Source: Clostridia bacterium
Lineage (GTDB): Bacteria > Bacillota > Clostridia > Christensenellales > Aristaeellaceae
Direction: 5' to 3'
Length of the DNA stretch: 64,000 nucleotides
NCBI GenBank assembly: GCA_017524615.1
Contig: JAFXVJ010000007.1
Span: 62,001-126,000 of the forward strand
This document shows, piece by piece, positions 46,926 to 56,292 of this stretch. The notes beneath the pieces were generated by a model. The model saw only the letters and a program-made list of their open reading frames with translations, ran no database searches and had not been told where the DNA came from. Made by a program: the position numbers and the translations under genes. How positions within the stretch are numbered: position 1 is the first letter of the stretch; every line of letters starts with the position of its first letter.

Positions 46926-48878
46926 ATGATGAAGCAATGGATGACCCTGCTGCTGGCGATGACGCTGTTGGTTTCCTTGCTGCCCTCCGCCATGGCGGAG
47001 GAGGCGGTCAGCACGCTGTATGTGAAAAAGGTGGAAAACCTGCCGGAGGATTTCATATTCGGCATGGATGTGTCCAGCGTGCTGGCGGAGGAAAGGAGCG
47101 GCGTCATATACCGCGATTTTGACGGCAGCGAGGCGGATCTGTTCCGGGTGCTGGCGGACAACGGCATCAATTACATCCGCGTGCGGGTGTGGAACGACCC
47201 CTACGACGCCCAGGGCCGGGGCTTTGGCGGCGGCAACTGCGATACCGCGGCGGCGGTGGAAATGGGCCGCAGGGCCACGGCCAACGGCATGAAGCTGCTG
47301 GTTGATTTCCATTATTCCGATTTCTGGGCGGATCCCGGCAAGCAGATGGTGCCCCGGAGCTGGAAGGGCATGGATATCGAAACGAAAACCGAGGCGGTGT
47401 ACCAGTTCACCCGGGACTGCCTGCTTCAGATGAAGGATGCCGGGGTGGACGTGGGCATGGTGCAGGTGGGCAACGAAACCAACGGGCGCCTGTGCGGGGA
47501 ACGCACCTGGTTCAACATTCAGTATCTGATGCAGGCCGGGGCCCGGGCCACCCGGGAGGTATATCCCGGCGCGCTGGTGGCGCTGCATTTCGCAAATCCC
47601 GAAAAAGAGGGCAGCTACGCCACATATGCCGGCAAAATGGCCTACTACAACGTGGATTACGACGTCTTTGCCACTTCCTATTATCCTTACTGGCACGGCT
47701 CGCTGGATAATCTGTCCCGGGTGCTTACCGAAATTGCCGAAACCTATGGCAAAAAAGTGATGGTGGTGGAGACCTCCTATGCCTTCACTCCCGAGGACAG
47801 CGATTTTTCCGGCAACACCATCGGCGAGGGGGGCGGCATCGTGAAGGATTACCCCTTCACCGTGCAGGGTCAGGCCAACTGCATCCGGAATATCACCGAA
47901 ACCGTGGTGAACCGTACCGGAGGCGCGGGCATCGGCGTGGTGTACTGGGAAGGCGCGTGGATCACCGTGGGCGGCCAAAGCTGGGAGGAAAACCACGAAA
48001 AATGGGAGGCCTTCGGATCCGGCTGGGCCAGCAGCTATGCCGCGGTATACGATCCCGATGACGCAGGCAGGTATTACGGAGGCAGCGCGGTGGACAATCA
48101 GGCGATGTTTGACGCTCAGGGCCGCCCGCTGGAGAGCCTGAAGGTGTTTTCTCTCATGCGGACGGGCAACGATATCCCCCCCGTGGCGGACGCCCTGGAG
48201 GAGGTGACCCTCATTTGCGACCTGAACGCGCCGCTGCGCCTGCCCCAGACGGTGAACGCCGTCATGACCGACGACAGCCGGGCTGCCGTGCCTGTTCAAT
48301 GGCATTTGAGCGCGGCGGAGGAAAGCAGGATGCACACCTCCGGCCCCGCCCAATACGATGTCATTGGCACGACGGGCGGCATGACGGCCCATTGCTACGT
48401 ATCCATGGTGGAATACAATTATCTGACCGATTACAGCTTTGAGGAGGGCGGCGTCGGCTGGGAAATCACCGACCTGAAGAACGCGGACGAGCTGTACGTG
48501 GAGGATAAATCCACCGACTCCCTCACCGGCACCAGGCATATGCATTTCTGGAGCGCCAGAAAGGACAGCGTGGAATTCACCGTGGAGCAAACGGTGCGGG
48601 ACCTGCCCGCCGGCAAATACAGGTTCACCGTCTCCATCATGGGCGGCGACGCAGGCGATACCGATATTTATGCGTATGTGAAGCTGGATGGGCAGATCGT
48701 GGGCACGGCCCCGATGCGGATCACTTCCTATGGAAACTGGGACACCACCACCGTGCCGGCCTTTGATTATCAGCCGGGACATACCGTTGCCGTGGGCGTA
48801 TATGTGAAATGCCAGGGCGCTGGAAACGGCGCCTGGGGCAAGATCGACGACGCGCTGCTCAATTCCGTGCAGGAATGA
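46926..48878 (+). CDS. Secreted GH53 endo-beta-1,4-galactanase with Ig-like and carbohydrate-binding domains
   Basis: The 650-residue enzyme cuts beta-1,4-galactan of pectin side chains. A signal peptide (1-24) is followed by the GH53 domain (about 40-420), with FIFGMDVSSVLAEE at its start, acid-base Glu184 in QVGNETNGR, and nucleophile Glu282 in VVETSY. Next is a bacterial Ig-like domain (about 425-495), then a beta-sandwich (about 497-650; NYLTDYSFEEGGVGWEI) that resembles the CBM61 galactan-binding family. No sorting signal is seen, so it is released or held by its CBM. It lies upstream of the sugar importer, which has its own promoter. Confidence 0.93.
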   Translation: MMKQWMTLLLAMTLLVSLLPSAMAEEAVSTLYVKKVENLPEDFIFGMDVSSVLAEERSGVIYRDFDGSEADLFRVLADNGINYIRVRVWNDPYDAQGRGFGGGNCDTAAAVEMGRRATANGMKLLVDFHYSDFWADPGKQMVPRSWKGMDIETKTEAVYQFTRDCLLQMKDAGVDVGMVQVGNETNGRLCGERTWFNIQYLMQAGARATREVYPGALVALHFANPEKEGSYATYAGKMAYYNVDYDVFATSYYPYWHGSLDNLSRVLTEIAETYGKKVMVVETSYAFTPEDSDFSGNTIGEGGGIVKDYPFTVQGQANCIRNITETVVNRTGGAGIGVVYWEGAWITVGGQSWEENHEKWEAFGSGWASSYAAVYDPDDAGRYYGGSAVDNQAMFDAQGRPLESLKVFSLMRTGNDIPPVADALEEVTLICDLNAPLRLPQTVNAVMTDDSRAAVPVQWHLSAAEESRMHTSGPAQYDVIGTTGGMTAHCYVSMVEYNYLTDYSFEEGGVGWEITDLKNADELYVEDKSTDSLTGTRHMHFWSARKDSVEFTVEQTVRDLPAGKYRFTVSIMGGDAGDTDIYAYVKLDGQIVGTAPMRITSYGNWDTTTVPAFDYQPGHTVAVGVYVKCQGAGNGAWGKIDDALLNSVQE

Positions 48879-49064: not shown

Positions 49065-50594
49065 ATGAAAAAGTTCCTTGCGATGCTGCTTGCCATGATC
49101 ATGGTGCTGTCCATGGCCGTGACCGCCAACGGCGAAAGCCTGGAAGGTGAATACGATATCACCATCTGGGTGGCCGAGGAAATCGCGGACCTGACCCGCC
49201 AGCAGGTGGAAAACTTCAACGATGACAATGAAGACGGCATTTACTTCAACGCCACCGTGGAGCCCGTCTCTGAAGCGGACGCCGCCACCCAGATGATCAC
49301 CGACGTGGAAGCGGGCGCCGACATCTTCTGCTTCGCGCAGGATCAGTTCGCCCGTCTGGTGCAGGCCGGCGCCGTGGCCCGTCTGGGCAAGGCTGCCAGT
49401 GATTTCGTCGTTGAGAACAACGCGGCCGGCGTTGTGGCCGCCGCCACCTCCGGCGATGCCATCTATGCCTATCCCCTGACCGCCGATAACGGCTACTTCC
49501 TCTACTACGACAAGACCATCATCCCCGATGAGGATGTGGACTCCCTGGAAGCCATCATCGCGGACTGCGAAGCGGCCCAGAAGTATTTCGCCTTTGAAAT
49601 GCAGTCCTCCGCTTGGTATCTGGCGTCCTTCTTCTTCGGCACCGGCTGCGTGTCCGAATGGGTCACGGACGAAGATGGCGAATTCATCGAAGTGCATGAC
49701 ACCTTCAACAGCCCCCAGGGCCTGATCGCCGTCAAGGGCATGAAGAAGTTGGTGGATTCTCCCTTCCATCTCAGCTCTTCCAGCGGTTCTGAATTCGCCA
49801 ACGGCGCTGCCGCCGTGGTGACCGGCACCTGGGATTACGTCACTGTGGAAGGCATCCTGGGCGACAACATGGGCGTTGCCGATCTGCCCTCCTTCGAAGT
49901 GGAAGGCCAGACCTATCACCTGGGTTCCTTCAACGGCTGCAAGCTGATGGGCGTGAAGCCCCAGGTGGACAGCCAGAAGGCCGCTGCCCTGAACAAACTG
50001 GCCCAGTACCTGACCGGCGAAGACTGCCAGATGGAGCGCTTCGAAGCCCGCGCTTGGGGCCCCTCCAACGTGGCTGCTCAGGCTTCTGACGCTGTGCAGG
50101 CCAACCCCGGCCTGGCCGCCCTGCTGGCCCAGAGCCCCTATTCCATTCCTCAGGGCCAGATCCACGGCTCCTGGTGGGATATCGCCAAGGTCATCGGTGA
50201 CGACGTGAAGGCCGCTGCCGACGAAGACGGCCTGAAGCAGGCCCTGCAGAACTACGAAGACAAGATTTCCAGCCTGTTCACCATGAGCGACGATGTGAAG
50301 TACGCCTGGACCGTCATCGGCACCTGCAACCTGACCGACGGCTTCTTCTACACCGATTACAACAATGAAACCCGCAGCAACTGGAGCGAGGATATCCCCA
50401 TGGTGAAGGTTTCCGCCAGCGAGTGGAAGACCGAACAGGCCTGGGACATGGAAGCTGGCGTGCAGTTCAAGGTCCGCCAGGGCCTGAGCTGGGATAACGC
50501 TTTCCCGGCTGACAACTTTGTGGTGGAAGAAGCGGGCACCTACTATGTGCTCTTCAACGAAACCACCGGCGAAGTGAGCCTGACAGCCGAGTAA
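49065..50594 (+). CDS. Sugar ABC transporter substrate-binding protein with C-terminal SusE/SusF-like module
   Basis: The 509-residue protein is a MalE-type binding protein. The signal peptide (1-23) has no lipobox cysteine. The binding core spans about 28-405 (YDITIWVAEE, YAYPLTADNGYFLYYDK, ADLPSFEVEG). A separate beta-sandwich at about 410-509 (VIGTCNLTDG, WSEDIPM, W-x-tail) resembles the SusE/SusF starch-binding modules of Bacteroidetes. It therefore may bind polymer as well as oligosaccharide. The GH53 gene upstream argues for galactan oligosaccharides; the module and the nearby GH13 argue for maltodextrins. AGAAAGGATGATACCTCT precedes the ATG. A strong terminator separates it from the permease genes. 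Confidence 0.9.
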   Translation: MKKFLAMLLAMIMVLSMAVTANGESLEGEYDITIWVAEEIADLTRQQVENFNDDNEDGIYFNATVEPVSEADAATQMITDVEAGADIFCFAQDQFARLVQAGAVARLGKAASDFVVENNAAGVVAAATSGDAIYAYPLTADNGYFLYYDKTIIPDEDVDSLEAIIADCEAAQKYFAFEMQSSAWYLASFFFGTGCVSEWVTDEDGEFIEVHDTFNSPQGLIAVKGMKKLVDSPFHLSSSSGSEFANGAAAVVTGTWDYVTVEGILGDNMGVADLPSFEVEGQTYHLGSFNGCKLMGVKPQVDSQKAAALNKLAQYLTGEDCQMERFEARAWGPSNVAAQASDAVQANPGLAALLAQSPYSIPQGQIHGSWWDIAKVIGDDVKAAADEDGLKQALQNYEDKISSLFTMSDDVKYAWTVIGTCNLTDGFFYTDYNNETRSNWSEDIPMVKVSASEWKTEQAWDMEAGVQFKVRQGLSWDNAFPADNFVVEEAGTYYVLFNETTGEVSLTAE

Positions 50595-50678: not shown

Positions 50679-50719
50679 GTCCAACTGCTGGTTATTCTGA
50701 GAGGGAAGTGAACAAGAGC

Positions 50720-52498
50720 ATGAGCGAAACGAAACAAACGGGACAGGAAATGCAGGGAGTGGGTCATCAAGTCAAGCGCGTCCTGGTCTTTCTGGGGCTG
50801 CTGCTGCTGGGCTGCCTGATCTTCCTCATTTTCGGCGGTATTTTTTCCGGCATCGGCGTGCCCATGTATTGGACCGGCATCATCGCGGCGATCATATTCG
50901 CGCCGCTGGCGATCATCTGCCTGGTCAAGTGGGATAAGCTGTACGGCGTGTACAGCAGCGGAAACGAGCAAAACACCCTGCGGCTGAGCAAGTCGGAACG
51001 GCTGGCCTACAAGCTGATGAAGCGCATCCTGGGGATCCCGGCGGCTTTCCGGAACCTGGGCGTGAAGATCGGCAAGGGCTGCGCGAACCTGGTCAAGCGC
51101 GTCGGCGCGGAGATCAGGGATATCGTGATGACCTTTGTACACGGAGATTGGAAAACCAAGCTGAGCTACCTGGTGATGGGCTTTGGCAACATTGCCCGGG
51201 GCCAGATCCTGCGAGGCGTGCTGTTCCTGGTGTTCGAGATCGTATTCATCGGGTATATGATCCTCGCCGGTGGGTACTGGCTGAGCATGCTGCCTTCTCT
51301 GGGCAAGGTGGCCCCCATCCCCAACGGACGGTACAATGAGGCCCTGGACGTGTATGAGCCCATCTATGGGGACAACTCGTTCAAGATCCTTTTGTACGGC
51401 GTGCTGACCATCTTTTTCATCATCGCTTTCATTTATACCTGGCGCCAGAATGTGAAGCAGAACCAGCTGGCCGAAAAGATCCTGGCTTCCGGCAAAAAGC
51501 TGCGCAGCGGCAAGGACGACCTGCGCTCCATGGTGGACGATCAGTTCCACAAGACGCTGCTGGCCCTGCCCCTCACCGGCATCCTGATTTTCACGGTGAT
51601 GCCTATCGTGTTCATGGTGCTGGTGGCCTTCACCAACTATGACGGCGCGCACAACGGCTTTTCCAACAACCTGTTCGGCTGGATGGGCATGACCAACTTC
51701 AACACCCTTTTGTCCTGGGAGGTGAAGGGCGGATCGGGCACCCAGTCCTATGCCGCCACGTTCGGCGAGGTGCTGTCCTGGACGCTGATCTGGGCCTTCT
51801 TTGCCACCTTCACCAACTACTTCCTGGGCATGCTGGTGGCCATGGCCATCAACAAGAAGGGTATCCGGTTCAAGAAGGGCTGGCGTACCATCCTGGTGCT
51901 CACCATCGCCATTCCCCAGTTCATTTCCCTGCTGTACGTATCCAAAATGTTCGCCCGCAACGGCCTGGTGAACCAGTTCCTGATGGATATGGGCTGGATC
52001 AAGGAGGCCCTGCCATTCTGGGAAAAGGCCACGTGGGCGCGAGTCACCGTCATCATCCTGAATATCTGGATCGGCATTCCCTATCTGATGCTGATCACCA
52101 CCGGCATCCTGATGAACATCCCGGCGGACCTGTACGAATCCGCCCGCATCGACGGCGCCAACGCATGGCAGCAGTACCAGAAAATCACGCTGCCCTATAT
52201 GCTGTTCGTCACCGGCCCGTATCTGCTCACCAGCTTTACGGGCAACATGAATAACTTTAACGTCATTTATCTGCTCACCGGCGGCGCGCCTACCAACGCG
52301 GCCGCATCCTCGGCCGCAGGCACCGTGGGGTATACCGACCTGCTGATCACCTGGCTGTTCAAGATCACCACCGGCGCCGAATCCCAGTACTATATGGCTT
52401 CTGTGGTCGGCATCCTGGTGTTCGTGGTGGTGGCCGTTATCTCGCTGGTGGTATACAATCTGCTGCCGTCCATCAAGAATGAGGAGGATTTCCAGTGA
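50720..52498 (+). CDS. MalF-like sugar ABC permease
   Basis: The 592-residue permease has eight or more membrane segments. Two lie near the N-terminus (about 21-41 and 50-70), a basic loop follows, then another pair around a short outside loop (about 165-245), and the MalF core from about 280 with TLLALPLTGILIFTVMPIVFMVLVAFTNYD and the EAA-loop segment DLYESARIDGANAWQQYQKITLPYM, which contacts the ATPase. This extended N-terminal form is common in clostridia. GTG at 50708 would leave no room for the ribosome site, so ATG at 50720 is chosen. The stop overlaps the next start (TGATG). Confidence 0.93.
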   Translation: MSETKQTGQEMQGVGHQVKRVLVFLGLLLLGCLIFLIFGGIFSGIGVPMYWTGIIAAIIFAPLAIICLVKWDKLYGVYSSGNEQNTLRLSKSERLAYKLMKRILGIPAAFRNLGVKIGKGCANLVKRVGAEIRDIVMTFVHGDWKTKLSYLVMGFGNIARGQILRGVLFLVFEIVFIGYMILAGGYWLSMLPSLGKVAPIPNGRYNEALDVYEPIYGDNSFKILLYGVLTIFFIIAFIYTWRQNVKQNQLAEKILASGKKLRSGKDDLRSMVDDQFHKTLLALPLTGILIFTVMPIVFMVLVAFTNYDGAHNGFSNNLFGWMGMTNFNTLLSWEVKGGSGTQSYAATFGEVLSWTLIWAFFATFTNYFLGMLVAMAINKKGIRFKKGWRTILVLTIAIPQFISLLYVSKMFARNGLVNQFLMDMGWIKEALPFWEKATWARVTVIILNIWIGIPYLMLITTGILMNIPADLYESARIDGANAWQQYQKITLPYMLFVTGPYLLTSFTGNMNNFNVIYLLTGGAPTNAAASSAAGTVGYTDLLITWLFKITTGAESQYYMASVVGILVFVVVAVISLVVYNLLPSIKNEEDFQ

Positions 52499-55143
52499 TG
52501 AAGAAAAAAATCGCTTTGAAAACGCTGGCAATCGCTGTCATCCTGGTGGGCGTGGTCCTGCTGGGCTTCACAGCGCAGGGCATCATCGAAGGCAACAAGA
52601 TTTACGATCTGTTCCGGAAAATCCGGGTCAATGTGCATGACGTATATAAGGACGTGGACAACAAGGGCCTGGAACAGGTGAAGGAAGAATACCGCGATGT
52701 GTTCGCGGCGGTGGATCAGATTGACGCCCTGGGCGGAGAAAAGGCCAAGACGTATTTGAACAATGTCAACACCGCCTATGGCCTGGTGGACACCATCGAG
52801 GCCACGGAAAGCATCGTCGGCTCCATCAACCGCATGGGTGCGCAGCAGGCGCAGCAGAGCCTGGCCGAGGTGTTCGACACCATTGACGAGGCCGGCAAGG
52901 CGTTGAGCGCGGTCAAGGCAGCCGGCGCGGAGAACGCCGAGACCTACCTGGTGGACGTGGAAGCCGCCCTGGCGGATCACGAGGATCTGGACGAAGCCCG
53001 GGCACAGCTGGACGCGGGCTATGCTGATATGGACGAGGACACGGCCAAGCAGGTGAAGGCCTTCTTCAATTTCGTGTTCCAGATGGCGAAGGACAAGGGC
53101 AGCGAAGAAGCGCTGCGGTACATGGAAGCGGTCATTGAATCGGCGGATGTGACAGCCGAGGAATTCGCCGAGCAGAGGATCGCGGACCGCTACGCGGATC
53201 CGGAACTGGAAAACGCGGAGCAGCTGCGCCAGTACAGCGGCGATGTGTTCCGCCTGATCAGCGACCAGGGCACCGCCCAGGCCAAGACCTATATCCAGCA
53301 GCTGCTCAAGACCATGGAACAGAAGGATATCCCGGACGCCCGGGCTTATCTGGATGAAGTGTACGAGGACAATGACGACAATCGGGTCACCCGGAAATAC
53401 CTGGACGCCATCTTCCAGACCATCGACGCGCAGGGCATGGAATATGCCAAGCTGCACGGCGGTGATATCTGCGCGGTAGTGGGTCAGGAGGACGTGGAGC
53501 AGGCCCAGGCCTTCCTGGACGCGCTGAACGCCGCCCCGGCGGGGGACGCCGGCGCTTCTTTGGAGAAGCTCAGCCAGTTCCGCGCCGCCATCGAGGCAGC
53601 CGGCAAAGGATTTGACGGCAGCGCCAATCCGTATCTGTCCGGGTTGTACGCGGTGAACGCGGAGGTGGACAAGGCTGTTTCGGCGGCGGAGAGGGCCCAG
53701 AAGAAGGCGGATAAATCCGCTGCGGCCATCGACACTGCCCGGGAAAAGGCGGAAGCCGCCAAGGCGGCTGTGGCCGCCGCTGCCACGGAAGAGGAAAAGG
53801 CGGCTGCCGCGGAGGAATCGGACGCGGCCCAGAAGGCTTATGATACCGCCGTGGCCAAGGCCCAGAAGGATCGGGAGGATGCCGACAAGAAACAGCTGGA
53901 CGAAGAAAAAGCCCGGCAGTATATGGCCAGGATGGAGGAAGCTCTGGACCAGGCCAAATCCGGCGTGGCCCCGGAAAGCCTGGATCGGGTGAAGAAATTC
54001 CAGGATGACGTCTGCGCGCTGATGAGCAAGGTGGGCATGGAAAAGGCGAAAAAGTACATGGAAAATGCCTGCAAGGCTTACAGCGATAAAACGCTGCGCA
54101 TCACCCGGCTGGGCGACGACAACGCCCAGAAGCTGGAGGACCTGGATGACACCAAGCTGTCCCGCACCCGGAACAAGGCCAGGCTGATGATGCTGACGCT
54201 GGCCTGCCTGATCATCGGCGTGGTGCTGCTGTGCATCAAGGTCAATGAAAACGCCCAGCCCAGGCTGACGCGGGAGGAAAGGGCGCAGATGGGCCGCCAT
54301 ATGGGCCTGAAAACCTCCAGGATGATTGCCAATTCAGCCATTCACGCGGTGCTGATCATCATCAGCGTGGTGTGGCTGATCCCGTTCATCTCGATCGTGC
54401 TGCAATCCCTGCGCGTGGAATCCACCCATCAGGTGGGCTATATCATGCCGGATAAGCTGCACTTCTACAACTACGCGGATCTGTTCGGAACGGATTTCCC
54501 CAGGTGGTACGCCAACACCTTCATCATGGCCCTGATCGTGGCTCTGCTGCAAACGGTCATCGTGCTGTGCATGAGCTACACCCTGTCCCGTTTCCGCTTC
54601 AAAATGCGCAAGCCTCTGATGCGCTTCATGCTGATCCTGGGCATGTTCCCCGGCATGCTCACCATGATCATCCTCTATCGCGTGCTCAGCGACCTGGGCC
54701 TGACCCAGGAACACGCGGTGCCCGGATTGATCCTGGTGTATATCGCTTCCTCCGGGATGGGCTATTATGTGTCCAAGGGCTTCTTTGACACCATTCCCAA
54801 ATCACTGGATGAGGCGGCCCGGGTGGACGGCGCCACGCGGTTCCAGGTGCTGAAAAAGATCATCCTGCCGCTGTCAAAGCCCATCGTGATCTACACCATC
54901 CTGACGGCCTTCATGGGCCCATGGGGCGATTATGTGTTCGCGCGTTATATCTCCTTCGGCAAATCCGTCGGCATGAACGTGGCCGTAGGCCTGTACAGCT
55001 GGCTGAGCAAGGATCAGATCGCCTCCCGCTATACCATGTTCTGCGCCGGCGGCGTGCTGGTGGCCATTCCGGTGGCCGTGCTGTTCATGTGCCTGCAGAA
55101 GTACTATGTGGAAGGCGTTACCGGCGGCGCCGTCAAGGGATAA
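52498..55143 (+). CDS. MalG-like sugar ABC permease with giant extracytoplasmic repeat domain
   Basis: The 881-residue protein is three times the normal MalG length. The core (608-881) is typical: WLIPFISIVLQSLR, FPRWYANTFIMAL, the EAA-loop SLDEAARVDGATRFQVLKKIILPL, and the end KYYVEGVTGGAVKG. It is preceded by membrane segment 1 (about 8-28), about 530 residues outside (30-560) and membrane segment 2 (about 562-583), which keeps the core's orientation. The outside part holds about seven copies of an 18-residue motif with G-x3-A-x2-Y, such as DVFRLISDQGTAQAKTYI (249-266), and an Ala/Lys/Glu coiled coil (about 385-480). I know no family for it. GAGGAGG precedes the ATG. Confidence 0.9.
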   Translation: MKKKIALKTLAIAVILVGVVLLGFTAQGIIEGNKIYDLFRKIRVNVHDVYKDVDNKGLEQVKEEYRDVFAAVDQIDALGGEKAKTYLNNVNTAYGLVDTIEATESIVGSINRMGAQQAQQSLAEVFDTIDEAGKALSAVKAAGAENAETYLVDVEAALADHEDLDEARAQLDAGYADMDEDTAKQVKAFFNFVFQMAKDKGSEEALRYMEAVIESADVTAEEFAEQRIADRYADPELENAEQLRQYSGDVFRLISDQGTAQAKTYIQQLLKTMEQKDIPDARAYLDEVYEDNDDNRVTRKYLDAIFQTIDAQGMEYAKLHGGDICAVVGQEDVEQAQAFLDALNAAPAGDAGASLEKLSQFRAAIEAAGKGFDGSANPYLSGLYAVNAEVDKAVSAAERAQKKADKSAAAIDTAREKAEAAKAAVAAAATEEEKAAAAEESDAAQKAYDTAVAKAQKDREDADKKQLDEEKARQYMARMEEALDQAKSGVAPESLDRVKKFQDDVCALMSKVGMEKAKKYMENACKAYSDKTLRITRLGDDNAQKLEDLDDTKLSRTRNKARLMMLTLACLIIGVVLLCIKVNENAQPRLTREERAQMGRHMGLKTSRMIANSAIHAVLIIISVVWLIPFISIVLQSLRVESTHQVGYIMPDKLHFYNYADLFGTDFPRWYANTFIMALIVALLQTVIVLCMSYTLSRFRFKMRKPLMRFMLILGMFPGMLTMIILYRVLSDLGLTQEHAVPGLILVYIASSGMGYYVSKGFFDTIPKSLDEAARVDGATRFQVLKKIILPLSKPIVIYTILTAFMGPWGDYVFARYISFGKSVGMNVAVGLYSWLSKDQIASRYTMFCAGGVLVAIPVAVLFMCLQKYYVEGVTGGAVKG

Positions 55144-55164: not shown

Positions 55165-56292
55165 ATGGCAAGCGTAAAGCTGACCGACGTGAAGAAGGTC
55201 TATGATAATAACGTGACGGCAGTGCACGATTTTAACCTGGATATCAAGGACAAGGAATTTGTGGTGTTCGTAGGGCCCTCCGGCTGCGGCAAATCCACCA
55301 CCCTGCGCATGATCGCCGGCCTGGAGGACATTTCCGGCGGCACCGTGGAAATCGACGGCGTGGTGGTGAACGACCTGCAGCCCAAGGACCGCGACATCGC
55401 CATGGTGTTCCAGAATTACGCCCTGTACCCCCACATGACGGTTTATGACAACATCGCCTTCTCCCTGCGGCTGAAGAAAATGCCGGAGGATGAAATCTAT
55501 GAAAAGGTTACCAACGCCGCGGAAATCCTGGGCATCACCCAGTATCTGACCCGTAAGCCCCGCGCCCTGTCCGGCGGCCAGCGCCAGCGTGTGGCCATCG
55601 GCCGCGCCATGGTGCGCCAGTCCAAGGTGTTCCTGATGGACGAGCCGCTTTCCAACCTGGATGCGAAGCTGCGCAATCAGATGCGCGCCGAAATCATCCT
55701 GCTGCGGCAGAAGCTGGACACCACCTTCATCTACGTCACCCATGACCAGACTGAGGCCATGACCCTGGGCGACCGCATCGTGATCATGCGGGACGGTATC
55801 ATCGAGCAGGTGGGCACCCCCATGGAAGTGTTCGAAATGCCCCGGAACATCTTCGTGGCCGAGTTCATCGGCGCGCCCAAGATGAACATGATCGAAACCC
55901 GGCTGGAAAAGGAGGGCGACCGGTACTTCGTGCGGCCCTTCGGCGCGAAAATCGAGGTAGACGGCTCTAAGCGCGAAGAACTGCTGCAAAAGAACATCGA
56001 CAGCCGCGACGTGGTGCTGGGCGTGCGCCCGGAGCATATCGTGCTCAGCTGGCAGCCCGGTGAGCACGCCATCCCCTGCACCCTGGAGGTCAACGAAATG
56101 ATGGGCAGCGAGCTGCACCTGCACGTGTATACCGAGGATGAAACCCGCCTCATCGTCCGCGTGCCCACCATCGACCTCGCCCCCGATCAGCGCAGGCAAA
56201 TGGTATACGGCGCTAAGCTGTTCATCACCTTCGAGGGCAAGGTCATGCACTTCTTCGACAAGGAATCCGGACTCAACCTGATCTACGGCTGA
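55165..56292 (+). CDS. Sugar ABC transporter ATPase (MsmX/MalK/UgpC type)
   Basis: The 375-residue ATPase has Walker A GPSGCGKST (37-45), Q-loop FQNYALYPHM, signature LSGGQRQR (about 134-141), Walker B VFLMDEPLSNLD and the switch His in VTHDQTEA. A C-terminal OB-type regulatory region (about 240-375) includes GVRPEHIVL. In Bacillus, MsmX serves many importers; here it directly follows the permeases, so it is at least theirs. ATG follows GAAAGGAGAGATGAGACA. A bidirectional terminator follows. Confidence 0.95.
   Translation: MASVKLTDVKKVYDNNVTAVHDFNLDIKDKEFVVFVGPSGCGKSTTLRMIAGLEDISGGTVEIDGVVVNDLQPKDRDIAMVFQNYALYPHMTVYDNIAFSLRLKKMPEDEIYEKVTNAAEILGITQYLTRKPRALSGGQRQRVAIGRAMVRQSKVFLMDEPLSNLDAKLRNQMRAEIILLRQKLDTTFIYVTHDQTEAMTLGDRIVIMRDGIIEQVGTPMEVFEMPRNIFVAEFIGAPKMNMIETRLEKEGDRYFVRPFGAKIEVDGSKREELLQKNIDSRDVVLGVRPEHIVLSWQPGEHAIPCTLEVNEMMGSELHLHVYTEDETRLIVRVPTIDLAPDQRRQMVYGAKLFITFEGKVMHFFDKESGLNLIYG

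Follow-up and report, generated by a model that had tools for sequence, protein, structure and literature searches.

Importers that work with a binding protein are textbook machines whose permease plan is fixed, and the locus described here raises the question of what a large N-terminal addition may be doing on a permease subunit of the MalG type. The window, which is the whole stretch of 64,000 nucleotides analysed (G000:C19:62001-126000), belongs to a Clostridia genome, G000, of 2.55 Mb in 59 contigs. Its malG gene (52498..55143, forward strand, as are all features given below) is a single uninterrupted open frame of 881 codons, while CUT1 MalG-type proteins have a length of about 270-300 aa. 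The ATG at 52498 overlaps the malF stop (TGA at 52496-52498), a GTG at 52495 being overlap only, and GAGGAGGA lies directly 5' of the start. GC3 is 0.80 in the added domain and 0.83 in the MalG core; the original prediction had described start signal and base composition as normal. Its two added membrane segments are also found, as hydrophobic stretches beyond those of the core: aa 5-23 (52510..52566, hydropathy 2.59, preceded by KKK) and aa 564-582 (54187..54243, hydropathy 2.67). They bracket the ectodomain, aa 29-557 (52582..54168), which is all-alpha with repeats according to motif counts, an alignment of three carriers and AlphaFold.

The MalG core occupies aa 598-881 (54289..55140). In it, Pfam places BPD_transp_1 at aa 698-871 (72.3 bits, the cut-off being 26.4), as is characteristic of CUT1 MalG-type permeases, and the EAA region can be read directly from the sequence. 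With E 4.7e-9 and a TM by target of 0.79, the best PDB match in Foldseek is 3puv_G, one of the MalG chains solved for the maltose transporter, and the score against the NCBIfam maltose MalG equivalog PRK10998, 124 bits, lies below the curated 261. At the start of the core (54272..54291) the Shine-Dalgarno-like GGGAGGAA is followed by an ATG at 54289, a possible internal start for a candidate short MalG, on sequence alone; this ATG is not kept in the two other carriers, G026 (where it is ACG) and G886.

The ectodomain had been predicted to be built on a G-x3-A-x2-Y motif, and the motif is indeed enriched: the strict form occurs in 5 copies (aa 79, 143, 201, 258 and 513) where 0.20 are expected, a number reached by 0 of 5000 shuffles, and the G026 homologue has it 4 times, also reached by 0/5000. 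The positions first quoted, nevertheless, fall 6-9 residues early, and the one placed at 127 was not recovered. With a looser motif the signal is less marked (8 copies, with 41/5000 shuffles reaching 8), and in a leave-one-out profile 4 of the 8 copies (79, 258, 313 and 513) score higher than 299 or more of the 300 ectodomain shuffles, while 56, 114, 143 and 201 fail, 56 having been taken out of register. The structure prediction that had been proposed gave helices throughout, both for full-length MalG (pLDDT 76.7, pTM 0.45) and for the ectodomain alone with three sequences (pLDDT 80.6, pTM 0.60); aa 2-41 are predicted as one continuous helix that includes membrane segment 1. The proposed coiled coil is present as a predicted helical hairpin (aa 381-465, 53638..53892, from alignment and AlphaFold, with helices at 381-427 and 431-465), although it is variable and missing in carrier G886. 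No match to the ectodomain was obtained among Pfam, NCBIfam or PDB sequences, TPR, Sel1 and HEAT families included (Pfam, E up to 1), and no description of such an ectodomain-bearing MalG was found in the literature searched. The N-terminal helical domain of about 530 aa is real and, as far as we could find, undescribed, as had been proposed.

As to its position, a pair of spans leaves the core starting on the inner side, so that the core topology would be unchanged, as anticipated, and the bracketed domain is expected to lie outside. The lysines that precede segment 1 are consistent with this placement. A stretch of 5 basic residues just before segment 2, on the supposed outer side, disagrees with it and would suit a cytoplasmic domain whose two segments do not span the membrane. 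Against that arrangement, both segments have a hydropathy of 2.6-2.7 over 19 residues and the core should start inside, and we consider it very improbable.

The same fusion, in the same gene order, was found in G026, of the same genus, and in G886, of another genus, with MalG lengths of 919 and 825 aa counted from GTG. G026 is the MAG RUG10690, presumably from rumen by its RUG prefix, and was the sole locus returned by a public genome scan. In these two proteins the ectodomain is 38-46% and the core 81-87% identical to that of the window. That two separate genes were joined in assembly or through a misread frame, as the fragmented state of the window assembly might suggest, is refuted in practice by the recurrence of the fusion in both genomes and by ectodomain differences that, between G000 and G026, are commonest at third codon positions; the probability of such an artefact is negligible, and the fusion can be taken as genuine, as first proposed. 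The carriers are few. With tblastn the fusion was detected in 2 of 60 relatives (G000 and G026), profile A2 matched 2/29 genomes of the genus, and in a family-wide profile search 4 of 308 genomes exceeded the threshold, one of which (G360) was taken as chance. The order sample (396 genomes) and the class sample (391) gave 2 matches each, the own genome and one chance match; G026 and G886 were not found in these samples and presumably lie outside them. In 41 operon copies, drawn from 40 genomes, the length that precedes the MalG core was compared. It is 538-635 residues in the three carriers, with 597 for the window protein, against at most 26 in 37 of the 38 non-carrier copies; the exception, G012, has about 105, a P1-loop insert included. 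The blocks invariant in the three carriers include both membrane-near ends, GN-x3-DLF-x-KI and LRI-x2-LG.

Between G000 and G026 identity is 87% in the core and 42% in the ectodomain. By the NG86 method, the ectodomain has a dN of 0.52 and a dS of 1.14 and the core 0.08 and 0.59, which gives dN/dS ratios of about 0.46 and 0.14; judged by these rates, the ectodomain is evolving fast yet under constraint. In the MalG-core tree (36 rows, P1 columns removed) the three carriers are joined (97/96), with G886 beside G000. The MalF tree groups G000, G026, G009 and G886 (96/96), places G886 next to G009 (100/100) and rejects a clade of carriers alone, while in the MalK tree G886 falls within its own genus (98/98 with G212) and a carrier clade is rejected. 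The binding-protein tree does not decide the grouping. Although the long branch of G886 in the trees of MalG and MalF makes its placement less sure, the MalG, MalF and MalK trees support a single origin of the ectodomain malG and its entry into G886 together with malF, the malK of that operon being native; malF and malG thus seem to have come to G886 separately from malK.

The gene order of the window, GH53, CUT1-type binding protein, malF, malG and MalK/UgpC-type ATPase, provides the partner genes expected of a CUT1 importer. The GH53 glycosidase (46926..48878, Pfam) is a same-strand upstream neighbour, placed in the operon by order only, and would point to galactan oligosaccharides as the substrate. 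MalK (55165..56292) was assigned by Pfam and NCBIfam. MalF (50708..52498, 596 aa; Pfam, hydropathy) carries two additional membrane segments at its N-terminus, aa 25-43 and 55-73; such extra spans exist in all three carriers (by eye in G026 and G886) and also in some non-carriers. In G886, L133 6201-8252 encodes a MalF with an N-terminal span, an outside domain of about 165 aa and a second span, by eye, in which no Pfam match exceeded the cut-off; the MalF of G009, where the contig ends, seems to share the second span of the G886 MalF. The binding protein (SBP_bac_8, 49065..50594, Pfam) has a signal peptide in which, by eye, the canonical lipobox is missing, as in 15 of 16 orthologues, that of G012 being borderline; Lgt is present in 29/29 genus genomes. 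In sister species an ordinary MalG is served by the same kind of unlipidated protein, which means that the ectodomain is not needed to keep such a protein near the cell. The C-terminal 105 aa or so of the window binding protein (50271-50591) have no Pfam match and a sole PDB match covering 28 residues (Tako8, E 1e-5), and the homologues of G018 and G012 are shorter; L036, in G023, has an in-frame stop within its binding-protein match, either a sequencing error or a broken gene.

Co-change was counted over sites at least 90% constant in 33 non-carriers. Those changed in all three carriers number 2 of 304 in MalF and 3 of 189 in MalG, against 0/192 in the binding protein and 0/236 in MalK. Of the three sites in MalG, two lie in the P1 loop, namely 654 (W) and 657 (D); the window protein reads LHFY at 654-657 (54457..54468, from the alignment of operon copies). 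Tryptophan stands at 654 in 34 of the 38 rows from non-carriers, and the other four are the distant G850, G808 and G832, and G012, which is not aligned there. The enrichment in P1 is weak (hypergeometric P 0.03) and represents one event on one branch; moreover, one of 8 control clades (G001/G008/G024) has 2/2 changes in P1, the carriers having 2/4 by the same count. When G000 and G026 alone are set against 16 others, 5 sites are obtained in the binding protein, 2 in MalF, 5 in MalG (3 of them in P1) and none in MalK. In E. coli, MalE contacts MalG P1 and MalF P2, by the title of Daus 2007 as given in PMC3150292, and co-change in the P1 loop may be a sign, a hint and not a proof, of a link between ectodomain and docking.

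From this material a tentative answer can be built. The MalG subunit of a galactan-oligosaccharide importer would have gained, once, an N-terminal module composed of a span, a helical-repeat ectodomain of about 530 aa and a second span, fixed in the membrane at either end next to the permease mouth. Outside the membrane, in contact with MalF/MalG loops, the ectodomain would act as a scaffold that keeps near the docking site the unlipidated binding protein that the cell secretes, or the loaded form of it, a role that could be likened to that of the E. coli MalF P2 domain acting on MalE. Favourable to it are the predicted position, the binding protein without lipobox, the changed P1-loop residues and the membrane-near invariant blocks, as expected for permease contact, together with trees compatible with a joint transfer of malF and the ectodomain malG, the malK of G886 being native, the dN/dS constraint and the same fusion and gene order in G026 and G886. 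The orthologous G012 importer, in addition, instead has a MalF insert of about 400 aa, and MalE can bind MalFGK2 with high affinity, according to the available text of PMC3328499. The scaffold is weakened by the lack of co-changed sites in the binding protein in all three carriers, by the unlipidated proteins of sister species with ordinary MalG, by the weak P1 enrichment with its parallel in a control clade, by the long branch of G886 and by the fast evolution of the ectodomain. Furthermore, ectodomain and binding protein are both acidic (pI 4.5 and 4.05), the basic stretch precedes segment 2, and the presence of low-complexity loops at this place in other MalG groups suggests a less specific role. 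All considered, the scaffold is the reading that we prefer, with a confidence that stays short of even.

There are other explanations. Membrane-hairpin modules might simply accumulate on the N-termini of MalF and MalG because they do little harm, without a specific role, as several unrelated modules in one slot and the patchy spread (3/308 family genomes, the chance match set aside) would suggest; a dN/dS below 1, blocks shared by three genomes, another module (group A) kept at 39-80% identity to that of L107 in five further genomes, and an apparent transfer between genera make such neutral accretion rather doubtful. A further alternative, unlikely in our view, is that the ectodomain reaches the wall or a surface layer as a spacer or anchor, placing the transporter without touching the binding protein. 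It would accommodate the fast divergence, the changes in length, the G886 protein without hairpin, the A/E-rich loops of low complexity that occupy this slot elsewhere among MalG proteins and the absence of a site co-changed in all three binding proteins; nevertheless, Pfam found no wall-binding domain, and with both ends anchored in the membrane a long reach needs the very hairpin that one carrier is missing. The predicted outside placement beside a GH53 gene would also fit a ligand-binding or sensing domain in its own right, for galactan pieces or wall signals, but aa 1-597 gave no SBP or CBM match in Pfam at E up to 1 and the prediction is all-helical, so that we judge this improbable. Accretion and spacer both rank behind the scaffold.

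The window protein is not an isolated case. G000 encodes two further MalG-type permeases with N-terminal modules, L107 (704 aa) and L108 (580 aa), each with two span-loop-span units before the MalG core. The L107 module was found in 3 of 392 order genomes, its own included; the remaining two are G212 and G413, which come from a different genus and are assembled in 1-2 contigs. A profile of this module gave no match to the ectodomain of the window. L108 belongs to a group with loops of widely differing length and low complexity, and a third MalG group has two loci with two short hairpins each, by eye. Open-frame lengths overstate the number of extended MalGs, since 3 of 20 fetched loci, among the matches listed, were read-through. 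N-terminal addition of a span, an ectodomain and a span is a recurrent architecture in the MalG proteins of this family, which we take to consist of gut and rumen Clostridia. It might be, as an unlikely but wider version of the scaffold, that MalG and MalF of the family repeatedly gain modules of unrelated fold that retain or dock unlipidated binding proteins, and that malF-malG pairs move between genera as units.

Other transport proteins of these genomes are also enlarged. In G012, in the orthologue of the window operon, MalF (L052 3998-6772) has 924 aa, its insert being beta-looking by eye and presumably at the P2 position, and MalG (L052 6772-7950) has two extra spans in the P1 loop. L108 4930-7944 (G000:C39) encodes a 1004-aa binding protein with an N-terminal span and a CBM_35 just under the cut-off before the SBP domain, and L133 15740-18849 (G886) an OppC-type permease and a second BPD_transp_1 permease; both of these carry long inserts, and by eye one shows repeat units and the other has two CxxC pairs. 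L106 2881-6396 (G000:C4), which runs off the contig, is a permease fused to SBP_bac_3 domains in four matched stretches; for comparison, GlnPQ has two substrate-binding domains, in the available text of PMC8025302. A family whose permease subunits acquire large outside domains again and again, with three MalG examples in a single genome, would illustrate how importers become retuned, and by what means binding proteins that are secreted without a lipid anchor may stay near the permease. The effect of the module is open to test in closely related genomes that differ in having it (G000/G026 against G019/G023/G003, and G886 against G009), and the broader pattern deserves a survey.

Compared with the MalG of E. 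coli and other CUT1 systems, the core fold, the EAA region and the partner genes are alike, while the window protein has an N-terminal ectodomain in place of the at most 26 extra residues of ordinary orthologues; we know of no such domain in the usual MalG. Like enterobacterial MalF P2, the added part would be a sizeable domain outside the cytoplasm, carried by a permease of the maltose type and predicted to lie close to the docking face. P2, however, is an insert inside MalF, whereas the all-helical domain of the window precedes MalG between two extra spans. In GlnPQ and OpuA, substrate-binding domains are fused to the permease, according to the available texts of PMC8025302 and PMC11065425, and a covalently joined extracytoplasmic domain is likewise predicted here; unlike in those systems, the added part has no SBP match and a separate binding protein is encoded. 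There is also a likeness in plan with the extended MalGs of the family: although their loop sequences are unrelated to that of the window (hhalign probability 1.5% for group A against the window ectodomain), L107, L108, L110-L119 and L121 have the same succession of N-terminal span, outside loop, span and core, read by eye with hydropathy peaks in the loci beyond L107 and L108.
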